Shown: positions 12,686 through 29,966 of the stretch, piece after piece
How the letters are laid out: each line of letters begins with the position of its first letter
Numbering within the stretch: the first letter of the stretch is position 1
Assembly: GCA_943350045.1 (NCBI GenBank)
Contig: CALQZW010000004.1
Coordinates: 1 to 34,053, forward strand
Source: Candidatus Nomurabacteria bacterium
GTDB taxonomy: Bacteria; Patescibacteriota; Minisyncoccia; Phycocordibacterales; UBA9973
Direction of reading: 5' to 3'
DNA length: 34,053 bases
Program-made: the position numbers and the translations under genes
The notes under the pieces: model-generated
What the model saw: only the letters and a program-made list of their open reading frames with translations
What the model was told of the DNA's origin: nothing
The model's database searches: none

Positions 12686-13195
12686 ATGAACGCGACAAAT
12701 TGTATCTTTTGTAAAATTATCGCAGACGAAGTTCCTGCAGTGAAAGTATATGAAAATGAGCACATCTTGGCTTTTTTGGATATTACTCCCATCAACCCAG
12801 GTCACACTCTCATCATTCCGAAAGAACACCATGAAAATATGTTCGAACTTCCTGAAGCACTTACCCTCGAAATGATGCGTGCTGTAAAAAAGATTTCCCA
12901 CGGAATCAAAGACGGACTTTCAGAACCAGGAATGAATATCATCATGAACAACGGAGTAGCAGCTGGGCAGACAGTATTTCATGCACACATTCACCTCATC
13001 CCTCGCAAAAATGGAGACGGACATGCAATGTGGAAAGGCGGAAAATATTCTGAAGGCGAAGCAGAAAAAGTAGCACGTGCGATTATTGCAGCGCTAGAGG
13101 TAGAGACAGAGAAAGTGCCCCTAAAAGAGACTTCCGCAGGCCGACGGGCCGAGGGAAGCGAAAGCCCAGCAGGGCTTTACGCGAGTCTCTTTTAG
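12686..13195 (+). CDS. HIT family (histidine triad) protein
   Basis: 169 aa; NCIFCKIIADEVPAVKVYENEHILAFLDITPINPGHTLIIPKEHHENMFEL, HAHIHLIPRKNGDG; last ~30 codons lie inside a large inverted repeat. Confidence 0.95.
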   Translation: MNATNCIFCKIIADEVPAVKVYENEHILAFLDITPINPGHTLIIPKEHHENMFELPEALTLEMMRAVKKISHGIKDGLSEPGMNIIMNNGVAAGQTVFHAHIHLIPRKNGDGHAMWKGGKYSEGEAEKVARAIIAALEVETEKVPLKETSAGRRAEGSESPAGLYASLF

Positions 13196-13204
13196 GGGCA
13201 CTTT
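13112..13204. repeat. 93-nt inverted repeat with 21-bp perfect arms and two inner hairpins
   Basis: AAAGTGCCCCTAAAAGAGACT (13112-13132) / AGTCTCTTTTAGGGGCACTTT (13184-13204); inner GGCC-GACG-GGCC and AAAGCCC-AGCA-GGGCTTT. Confidence 0.9.
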
Positions 13205-26584: not shown

Positions 26585-28093
26585 ATGAATACTGTATCCG
26601 AACTCATATCAAAAGAGAGGATCCCTGCATATGTTACACATGTAACAGAAGCCCTGGAATCTTCTGGATTTGAGGCATATATTGTCGGCGGGTGTGTGAG
26701 AGACCTTATTCTTGGCCGTACGCCGAAGGACTGGGACGTCACAACCAACGCAACTCCAGAGGAGATCATTCCCCTCTTCACAAAAGCTGTATACGAAAAT
26801 ACATTCGGAACAGTGGCTGTTATTGTTCCACATGAAACAGAGGCGGATGTGACATACACAATTGAGGTAACTCCATACCGTAAGGAATCAGGGTACTCAG
26901 ACTCCCGACACCCAGACGCTGTAGAATTTAGTAAAACTATCGACGAAGACCTTTCTCGCCGAGACTTTACCATAAACGCCATGGCATATAGTGTCTCAAA
27001 GAATGTCCTATTGGACATGTATAAAGGACAAGAATCTCTAAAGGACAAGGTAATTACTACTGTCGGCCCAGCAAAGGACAGGTTTGCCGAAGATGCCCTC
27101 CGAATGCTTCGCGCCGTCCGTTTCTCAGCAGAACTTGGCTTTGCTATTTCACATGAAACAAGCGAAGCTATTGTTTCTCAAGCTGATTCTGTCACAAAAC
27201 TCTCAAATGAACGTATTCGGGACGAGTTTTCAAAGATTATCATGTCTCCAAGCCCTGCTCTTGGAATTACTCTCCTTGAGAAATATGGCCTTTTGAAACA
27301 TTTCCTTCCCGAGCTACTCGAAGGACTCGGATGTGAACAGAAGGGTGAGCATATTTATGACGTATATAACCACCTCTTGCATGCTCTCCAGCACGCAGCG
27401 GATAAGGGTTGGTCATTGGAAATCCGGCTCTCTGCCCTATTTCACGACATTGGCAAGCCTCGAACTCGCCGATGGGACGGAACAAAAGCTGGAGGCAAAG
27501 GGAAATATACCTTCTATGGACATGAAGTCGTTGGAGCTCGTATGACTCAAAAGATCCTAGAGCGCCTAAAGTACCCCAAGAAAACAAGCGAGTTGATTGT
27601 TTCACTCGTTCGCCAGCATATGTTCTTCTCAGACACTGAGGCCATTTCCCTCTCTGCAGTACGCAGAGTTGTAGCTAAAGTTGGTAAGGAAAACATCTGG
27701 ACCCTTATGAATATACGTGAATGCGACCGCGTGGGCATGAAAAAAGTAGAGGCTCCGTATCGCCTGCGCAAGTACCACGCTATGATTGACCAAGTACTGC
27801 GCGACCCCATCTCAGTCGGACAGCTTGCTATAGACGGGCAGATTCTAATTAGCGAGTTACACATGAAACCGGGCCCACGAATGGGGTGGATTCTACACGC
27901 TCTCCTTGAAGAAGTTCTAGATAACCCAGAGAAGAACACTCGTGAGTACCTAGACCCCAGAGTCGCAGAACTCAACCTACTCCCAGACATCGAACTCAAG
28001 ACTCTTGGTGAGAAGGCAAAGGAATCCAAGGAATCCCTTGAGGAACAGGAAATATCGAAGTTACACGCGAAACACGGAGTTCAGAAGAAATAG
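26585..28093 (+). CDS. cca: CCA tRNA nucleotidyltransferase with HD domain
   Basis: Start at MNTVSELISKERIP; GFEAYIVGGCVRDLILGRTPKDWDVTTNATPEEI, SRRDFTINAMAYS, FAEDALRMLRAVRFSAELGF, LFHDIGKPRTR. Confidence 0.95.
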   Translation: MNTVSELISKERIPAYVTHVTEALESSGFEAYIVGGCVRDLILGRTPKDWDVTTNATPEEIIPLFTKAVYENTFGTVAVIVPHETEADVTYTIEVTPYRKESGYSDSRHPDAVEFSKTIDEDLSRRDFTINAMAYSVSKNVLLDMYKGQESLKDKVITTVGPAKDRFAEDALRMLRAVRFSAELGFAISHETSEAIVSQADSVTKLSNERIRDEFSKIIMSPSPALGITLLEKYGLLKHFLPELLEGLGCEQKGEHIYDVYNHLLHALQHAADKGWSLEIRLSALFHDIGKPRTRRWDGTKAGGKGKYTFYGHEVVGARMTQKILERLKYPKKTSELIVSLVRQHMFFSDTEAISLSAVRRVVAKVGKENIWTLMNIRECDRVGMKKVEAPYRLRKYHAMIDQVLRDPISVGQLAIDGQILISELHMKPGPRMGWILHALLEEVLDNPEKNTREYLDPRVAELNLLPDIELKTLGEKAKESKESLEEQEISKLHAKHGVQKK

Positions 28094-28110
28094 AAAGTAT
28101 CACGTGAAAC

Positions 28111-28144
28111 AACGCCCCGCCCTTATTTATAAGGGCGGGGCGTT
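28111..28144. terminator. Bidirectional terminator between cca and xth
   Basis: AACGCCCCGCCCTTA TTTA TAAGGGCGGGGCGTT. Confidence 0.9.
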
Positions 28145-28164
28145 TCATATGTAACAATATGTAG

Positions 28165-28932
28165 CTATTTTACCTCTAGAAGGATTGGACAGTGATCCGA
28201 CCCATACCAGTCAGTCAGAATCTCCGTGCCTGTTACACGTGAAAGAAACTTGGACGATGCGATGAAATAATCGATTCTCCAGCCCACGTTTCGGTCACGA
28301 GCACGGGTAAATTGATCCCAATACGTATAGGCTCCTTCTTTGGTCGGGTAAAAGTGACGAAATACGTCAGTGAATCCCTGAGAAAGAAACTCATCCATCC
28401 AGGCACGTTCCACAGGAAGAAATCCGACATGTTTCTGGTTTTCCTTTGGACGAGCCAGGTCAATCTCTTCGTGAGCCACGTTTACGTCGCCGGTCACAAG
28501 AACAGGGCGTTCTTTGGCAATCTGTGTTACACGTGAAAGAAACGTGTCATAGAATTCGAGTTTATACTGGAGTTTCTCTGGAGCACCGCCTCCATTTGGG
28601 AAATAGCAGTTTACGAAGGTGAAATCCTTATAGTGCAGGATGAGGGTTCGTCCTTGTTCGTCAAAGCGGGGAACTCCGAGGCCGTATTCGACTGACTCTG
28701 GCACTTCTGTTGTATACACGGCAACACCGCTATACCCCTTTTTATATGTTGATGACGCAAAGTATGCCGTGTAACCTGGCAGATTTCGTGCACTCTCAGG
28801 AATCTGTGCCTCATCGGCCTTGGTTTCCTGTAGAGCCAAGATATCTGGCTTATAGGTATCAAAGAGAGGGAAGAACTTGTCGTCACGCAGCGTTGCACGG
28901 ATTCCGTTGGTATTCCATGAAATTATTCTCAT
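28165..28932 (-). CDS. xth: Exodeoxyribonuclease III / AP endonuclease
   Basis: Start at MRIISWNTNGIRATLRDDKFFPLFDTYKPDILALQETKADEAQIP; YFPNGG, VTGDVNVAHEEIDLARPKENQKHVGFLPVERAWMDEFL, RIDYFIASSKF, SDHCPILLEV. Confidence 0.96.
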   Translation of the reverse strand: MRIISWNTNGIRATLRDDKFFPLFDTYKPDILALQETKADEAQIPESARNLPGYTAYFASSTYKKGYSGVAVYTTEVPESVEYGLGVPRFDEQGRTLILHYKDFTFVNCYFPNGGGAPEKLQYKLEFYDTFLSRVTQIAKERPVLVTGDVNVAHEEIDLARPKENQKHVGFLPVERAWMDEFLSQGFTDVFRHFYPTKEGAYTYWDQFTRARDRNVGWRIDYFIASSKFLSRVTGTEILTDWYGSDHCPILLEVK

Positions 28933-28963
28933 ATCTATACGCAATAGTATCACATGAAACGTC

Positions 28964-28992
28964 TTGACGTATTTCACAGCAAAGCGTAGACT
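28964..28992 (+). promoter_or_regulatory. Promoter of the candidate ncRNA
   Basis: TTGACG-N17-TAGACT, same architecture as nusA and tig promoters in this window. Confidence 0.72.
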
Positions 28993-28998
28993 GCCTTG

Positions 28999-29316
28999 TA
29001 ATTGCAGATCTTTATTTTATTGGCAGATTGTATCGGGAATTGCAGCTATAAAGCCTGTACATCAAACAGGCCGTAGGTATTTTACACGCCGACTCCACGA
29101 AGCGGCATTATATATCTACACATATGCCAGCTAGGGTTTCACTAGAAGTGACCCTACGCGCAAGATCCGATACATCCTTTCCCAATGTAGGCGTACGTGT
29201 AGAATACAGTATGCTCTCCGGCACTGGTTCACTTGGTCGATTTTTTCGATCAAGCAAACACTATTGCGTCCCTTATTTGCTTTAAAGACCTCCTAATCTT
29301 GGGAGGTCTTTGTTAT
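28999..29316 (+). ncRNA. Candidate structured noncoding RNA, family not recognised
   Basis: Promoter TTGACG-N17-TAGACT (28964-28992), terminator 29284-29311, no coding ORF in between; many complementary helices including long-range TGTATCGG 29029-29036 / CCGATACA 29167-29174. Confidence 0.6.
29284..29311. terminator. Terminator of the candidate ncRNA, possibly shared with the convergent methyltransferase
   Basis: AAAGACCTCC taatcttg GGAGGTCTTT. Confidence 0.85.
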
Positions 29317-29966
29317 TTCTTCTTCAAGAGAACGATAGAATATACAACATCCTTACTCCCAAACGGTGTTTCATGGACGATGGAGCGAACGTTAAAATAT
29401 GGCTCAACAAGTGCACGAATCTCTTCGTCGCTAAAGAAATGATAGTGAACACCTTCGAGATTACGGTCAACGGTGCCGTCGTGCTTTGGACTATGATTGA
29501 AAAAATGTTCGGTTTCAGCAGAGAGGACTGCGAGAAAGAAGAAACCTTCGTGCTTAAGCACTCGAGCAACCTCCTTCATATACTCAGTATGATGAGAGGG
29601 GATAAGGTGGTGCAAAAGACCGATATCAATAGTTGCGTCAAAAGAAGCATCGGCGAGGGGTATAGAGAGCGCATCACCGGCAATGAAACGTGCTTCATTC
29701 TGTATTTTCTTGTTCTTTATCTCTTCATTCCCACGTGTAACAAGTTCTGAGTTGTTCTCAAGACCAATAACATGGAACCCAATACTCTGAAGCTCAAAGA
29801 GTAACCCTCCACGGCCTGCTCCGATATCGAGAATCATTGCGCCTTTCGGCAAATACAACATAAGCTCGTCGGCTCGGCGTGAAAAAGGAGTGTTCGTCCA
29901 GCGGTCTGTACCAGTGCGGTATGCGCGAGCGAAAAACTCATTCTGATCAGAGTACGACATATACAT
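29313..29966 (-). CDS. Class I SAM-dependent methyltransferase
   Basis: 217 aa; MILDIGAGRGGLLFELQSIGFHVIGLENN, FIAGDALSIPLADASFDATIDIGLLHHL. Confidence 0.9.
   Translation of the reverse strand: MYMSYSDQNEFFARAYRTGTDRWTNTPFSRRADELMLYLPKGAMILDIGAGRGGLLFELQSIGFHVIGLENNSELVTRGNEEIKNKKIQNEARFIAGDALSIPLADASFDATIDIGLLHHLIPSHHTEYMKEVARVLKHEGFFFLAVLSAETEHFFNHSPKHDGTVDRNLEGVHYHFFSDEEIRALVEPYFNVRSIVHETPFGSKDVVYSIVLLKKK

Follow-up and report, generated by a model that had tools for sequence, protein, structure and literature searches.

The interval between an exonuclease III gene (xth) and a methyltransferase gene in a Candidatus Nomurabacteria genome raises the question of whether it encodes a structured RNA in its own right and, if so, of which kind. 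The original prediction placed an independent, highly structured noncoding transcription unit there. The window, that is, the whole stretch of 34,053 nt that was analysed, is contig C4 of the genome called G000 here (627 kb, 86.6% complete); its features at this locus are collected in Table 1.

The locus and its predicted transcript

The genes around the candidate RNA are arranged in the order cca (+), xth (-), RNA (+), SAM methyltransferase (-), Xer-type recombinase (-) and rpsO (+), and the RNA is present in a single copy in the genome. Gene xth is divergent from the RNA promoter and the methyltransferase gene is convergent with the RNA, with no gene on the plus strand downstream of the RNA ahead of it. 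This position excludes a leader or riboswitch role, and since no gene follows on the strand of the RNA we infer that a trans-acting role is the most likely one. The only cis-regulatory Rfam match in the stretches scanned is a SAM-I riboswitch on another contig (L142 1878-1994, G000:C40, minus strand).

Table 1. Features at the candidate RNA locus, in window coordinates; counterparts are those in the homologue from G002 (L034).
Feature	Position	Strand	Basis	Counterpart or remark
xth, exonuclease III family, left neighbour	28165..28932	-	PF03372, E 3e-28	
RNA promoter TTGACG-N17-TAGACT, divergent to xth	28964..28992	+	sequence and scan	counterpart present
Predicted transcript, about 315 nt	28999..29316	+	promoter and terminator	fold z -7.15
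P1, joins 5' and 3' ends	29004-29009 / 29275-29280	+	MFE	
Conserved 5' motif GATCTTT-N3-TTAYTGG	29007..29023	+	pattern scan	shared
P2/P2b, closing helix of multibranch domain	29029-29037/29166-29174 + 29040-29043/29160-29163	+		L034:913-922/1065-1074 + 925-929/1059-1063, compensatory changes
P3 hairpin GCCTGT/ACAGGC	29053..29071	+		CACCAT/ATGGTG, 4/6 pairs altered on both sides
P4	29073-29080 / 29112-29119	+		2 compensatory pairs, 1 conserved G-U pair
P4', putative alternative hairpin GGCAT/ATGCC	29104-29108 / 29124-29128	+	sequence inspection	GGTATATA/TATGTACC
53-codon ATG ORF, judged not coding	29124..29285	+	no Pfam match	no counterpart
P5 hairpin	29130..29159	+	MFE	TTTCTC/GAGAAA
P6 hairpin	29190..29215	+	MFE	CCGGAAAA/TTTTCCGG, same order
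P7 two-part hairpin	29221-29228/29260-29267 + 29232-29240/29246-29254	+		L034:1098-1137, same two-part design
Intrinsic terminator, 13 bp stem, 4-nt loop	29283..29312	+	scan	terminator of unrelated sequence at same place
Class I SAM methyltransferase, right neighbour, convergent	29313..29966	-	PF08241/PF13649	synteny anchor

The promoter is present as originally described and matches 9 of 12 consensus positions. A scan of the region found two such matches where 3.5 are expected in shuffles, so that chance could account for its score taken by itself; its support comes from conservation in the homologue described below, where TTGACA-N17-TATAGT (L034:847-875, 11/12 matches) has the same geometry and lies at a nearly equal distance from the shared 5' motif (16 nt from the -10 box to the motif, against 14 nt in the window). 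The terminator was likewise correctly foreseen, with a stem of 13 bp rather than 10 bp. Together, promoter and terminator predict transcription of 28999-29316.

The statement that this unit holds no plausible ORF needs a qualification, as a 53-codon ATG ORF overlaps the RNA. It ends just ahead of the terminator, and units with small ORFs occupy the same intergenic region in sister genomes, as would suit a short mRNA that encodes a 53-residue protein behind a structured leader. The ORF, however, has neither a Shine-Dalgarno sequence nor a Pfam match nor a counterpart in the homologue, insertions between the two RNAs are not multiples of three, and base pairs rather than codons are conserved, which makes an mRNA very improbable.

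A homologue in a second species and the common fold

The plus strand of the 28964-29316 region folds with a minimum free energy (MFE) of -108.2 kcal/mol (z -7.15; none of 100 dinucleotide shuffles as low) and beats its shuffles without the terminator as well (z -5.33), in line with the high degree of structure that had been proposed. Among 200 intergenic windows of the genome it ranks in the top ten by fold z (z -7.2; mean -2.2), and most of the other top-ranked windows, unlike the candidate RNA, score through one or two long hairpins. A long hairpin without an Rfam match is found in two copies elsewhere in the genome, at window positions 13110-13201, where it overlaps the end of a HIT-family ORF convergent with pgk, and at L120 5494-5583 (G000:C18; z -15.5 for the region); the copies have a conserved three-way-junction core, TCCGCAGGCCGACGGGCCGAGGGNAGCGAAANCCCAGCAGGGNTTTACGCG, and outer stems that differ in sequence but are each perfectly complementary.

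The equivalent intergenic place was located in five congeneric genomes through synteny of the methyltransferase gene, and a syntenic homologue was found in one of them, G002 (assembly nzgw482), which belongs to another species of the genus. It lies at L034:847-1194, the first transcription unit in an intergenic gap of 650 nt, with a terminator at its end. The 5' motif common to both RNAs occurs four times in 148 family genomes; those of G000 and G002 alone fall between xth and the methyltransferase gene, and the remaining two are within or beside unrelated genes. Sequence identity of the two RNAs is low, but their global alignment (window RNA versus L034:882-1158) has a z of 3.2, a score reached by none of 500 shuffles; the two are thus homologous in sequence beyond chance. 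The homologue also folds far better than its shuffles (z -6.0, and -4.69 without the terminator).

MFE structures computed separately for the two RNAs share P2, P2b, P3, P5, P6 and P7 in identical order. The common layout begins with a closing P2 of 9-10 bp, followed by an AA bulge, a P2b of 4-5 bp, P3, further branches and P5; P6 and the two-part P7 come after this domain. The strands of P2 are TGTATCGGG/TCCGATACA in the window RNA and GTAATTACAG/CTGTAATTAC in the homologue. P1 pairs the same regions in both, in a shifted register in the homologue (GATCTTT/AAAGATT), and its support is weak because of that difference. In the region of P4, the homologue's own MFE picks a different pairing; P4 may compete with P4' or make a pseudoknot on it. 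The complementary segments listed in the original prediction all exist in the sequence, and two of them, ATTGG/CCAAT and GCCG/CGGC, have no counterpart in the homologue and are not conserved.

The two RNAs were then compared in a structural alignment that was fitted by hand to the structure, with gaps padded with N since MAFFT alone misaligns the closing helix. Here both partners are altered in 24 of 70 pairs, and pairing is possible in 99% of cells, compared with 27-51% when the partner is slid; because of the fitting to the fold these counts are inflated, and generous above all for P5-P7. The compensatory changes in P2/P2b, P3 and P4 are firm, since conserved flanking sequence anchors these helices. 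When the alignment was made from sequence only, 34 of the 44 pairs of the window RNA could still form at register 0, compared with 15-25 when the register was changed, and few compensatory changes were seen. Helix order is therefore common to the two RNAs and kept via compensatory changes, in an alignment that is partly fitted to the fold; covariation was assessed over two sequences, no third member having been found. A genuine structured RNA gene at 28999-29316 is in our judgement highly probable.

The original prediction also set this RNA beside a putative segregation locus. Sites resembling parS (TGTTTCACGTGAAACA with 2-4 mismatches) do cluster at window 26632-28946, within and around cca and xth, and such clusters recur on the corresponding contigs of relatives (G001, G004, G005, L068 and L071), several with a perfect site. 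The adjacency thus holds as a matter of position, and the cluster itself is genuine and has been conserved within the genus; the link does not hold beyond position, as the contig carrying the G002 homologue is without a parS cluster. The same absence speaks against the idea that the segment is a DNA-level element for chromosome segregation, which the adjoining sites would favour together with the folding of both strands (minus strand somewhat better than shuffles, z -3.63, and z -2.27 without the terminator). The fold of the plus strand is much stronger, however, and the G-U pair of P4, the promoter and the terminator have all been kept, so that we give this explanation hardly any weight.

Known RNA families and distribution

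No Rfam family reaches threshold at the locus, where even relaxed thresholds return only noise, and the proposal of an independent, undescribed structured RNA is borne out by this result together with the syntenic homologue and its compensatory changes in several helices. The suggestion of a very diverged 6S-like RNA finds no support. Like 6S RNA (RF00013), the candidate is a stand-alone structured RNA; 6S RNA, however, is about 185 nt long and forms a long hairpin whose central bubble mimics an open promoter, and it binds RNA polymerase and templates pRNA, whereas the candidate of about 315 nt has a multibranch fold in place of the long closing stem, central bubble and terminal stem, and leaves the covariance model unmatched. 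As had been noted from the sequence, signatures of tmRNA, RNase P RNA and SRP RNA are lacking: none of these Rfam models matches here. The candidate resembles tmRNA (RF00023) in its similar length, in having its two ends drawn together and in a long closing helix, but has neither the tRNA-like end nor the tag reading frame of that RNA, and the tmRNA of this genome lies elsewhere (G000:C20:9262-9655). With RNase P RNA of type A (RF00010) it shares a similar length. A clear RNase P RNA was recognized in four of the six genus members; in the G000 assembly it was not found, and its gene probably belongs to the portion of the genome that the assembly lacks. The SRP RNA models (RF00169, RF01854) are unmatched at the locus.

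Across the six genus genomes, the 6S and SRP RNA models found nothing, small SRP RNA included. In tblastn searches with E. coli proteins, no homologue of Ffh or FtsY was detected in G004 (estimated to be 100% complete) or G000, and the same searches recovered trmD, smpB, grpE, rpsP and ftsE. The genus may be without a signal recognition particle altogether.

One might consider a housekeeping RNA that has diverged very far (RNase P, SRP, 6S or a second tmRNA), given that RNase P RNA, 6S RNA and SRP RNA are all unfound in a genome that is 86.6% complete. This explanation is largely refuted: the tmRNA is accounted for, G002 carries a separate standard type A RNase P RNA besides the candidate homologue, two genus genomes lack Ffh, FtsY and SRP RNA, and Rfam scores are nowhere near threshold. 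Nor is the candidate a universal housekeeping RNA, as searches did not detect it in four sister genomes, of which one was covered in full.

The two genomes of one genus are indeed its observed range. BLASTN of the RNA against 100 relatives, phages and plasmids returned nothing beyond chance, and nhmmer with a two-row profile gave zero matches. A covariance model built from the window RNA (R1) matched only itself in 61 genomes and missed the G002 homologue; the two-sequence model (R2) found no third member in 32 family genomes, 397 order genomes, the complete G004 or parts of G005. Model searches thus failed to detect the RNA in G001, G003, G004 (searched as a whole genome) and G005, a result that is not proof of absence because such searches miss relatives at this divergence, as R1 did. 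Weak matches at G412, L087, L088 and L188 were rejected, lying inside coding sequence or next to unrelated genes. Nearly all near-matches to the 5' motif in the genus genomes fall inside open frames; an intergenic one, in G005 (L101), has no model match.

The xth gene of G000 is 74-77% identical to that of each other genus member, and those share 89-92% (G004 not in the comparison), from which G000 branches outside the others. As the RNA is found in this basal genome and in G002, the genus ancestor would already have carried it unless it moved horizontally, and, with the same proviso, the distribution points to its loss or change beyond recognition in G001, G003, G004 and G005. In G001 and G004 the xth and methyltransferase genes are directly adjacent; a small-ORF unit separates them in G003 and G005. 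Small units with good promoters and terminators were observed between these two genes at L034 1248-1470, L037 570-882 and L033 2200-2380 (minus strand), in G002, G003 and G005; they contain tiny ORFs of 8-52 codons, with Ala-Gly-Asn motifs in two.

Such patchy presence and the low sequence identity would also be expected of a decaying remnant, a once useful or selfish RNA gene that is now drifting. Helices should be broken under drift, yet pairing is retained in 99% of cells (in the fitted alignment) and each of the two RNAs still folds far better than its shuffles, so that we regard decay as decidedly unlikely. We read the candidate instead as a new, lineage-restricted, fast-evolving structured noncoding RNA with two known members.

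Possible roles and significance

Our preferred reading, to which we assign a probability of about 0.55, is a stand-alone structured noncoding RNA gene of ~315 nt that the genus ancestor probably possessed, that evolves fast and that acts in trans with a protein or RNA partner. The RNA would work as a regulator or scaffold in complex with protein, its helical arms holding the fold; a protein or a second RNA could make contact at the conserved segment GAUCUUU-N3-UUAYUGG near the 5' end. If the segment acted by pairing, the gene might specify an antisense RNA that acts in trans to regulate mRNAs; its own promoter and terminator and a 5' motif that is conserved and partly unpaired would be consistent with that role. 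Against 581 start regions of G000, however, the segment forms duplexes no better than shuffled seeds do (top -18.1, versus an average of -19.7 for the shuffled seeds), and the conserved architecture is more elaborate than such RNAs need; antisense regulation is accordingly doubtful. The negative pairing result inclines us towards a protein partner, and the RNA is probably protein-binding.

Several large structured bacterial noncoding RNAs, such as raiA, ROOL, GOLLD, OLE and ARRPOF, have functions that are unknown or only recently found. The candidate resembles them in general terms as an independent transcript of hundreds of nucleotides with a multibranch fold and no ORF; it differs in that no such Rfam family scores, in being smaller than most and in occurring in two genomes of one genus. 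A bolder and rather unlikely reading is that it represents a large structured RNA of a new class, whose multibranch core is pseudoknotted and whose 5' contact motif is conserved, that would work as an RNA-protein machine or as a catalyst in a single patescibacterial lineage and evolve so fast that a covariance model of one member misses the next.

To our knowledge, little has been described of the noncoding RNAs in Patescibacteria, and our literature search found no paper on structured RNAs of this lineage. An RNA gene of 315 nt that has been kept through genus-level divergence in very small genomes probably does something. The homologue pair provides a concrete structural model, and it illustrates that synteny and structure can reveal RNAs missed by sequence and covariance searches. 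Should the new-class reading be true, Patescibacteria may commonly carry RNAs of this sort that escape notice.
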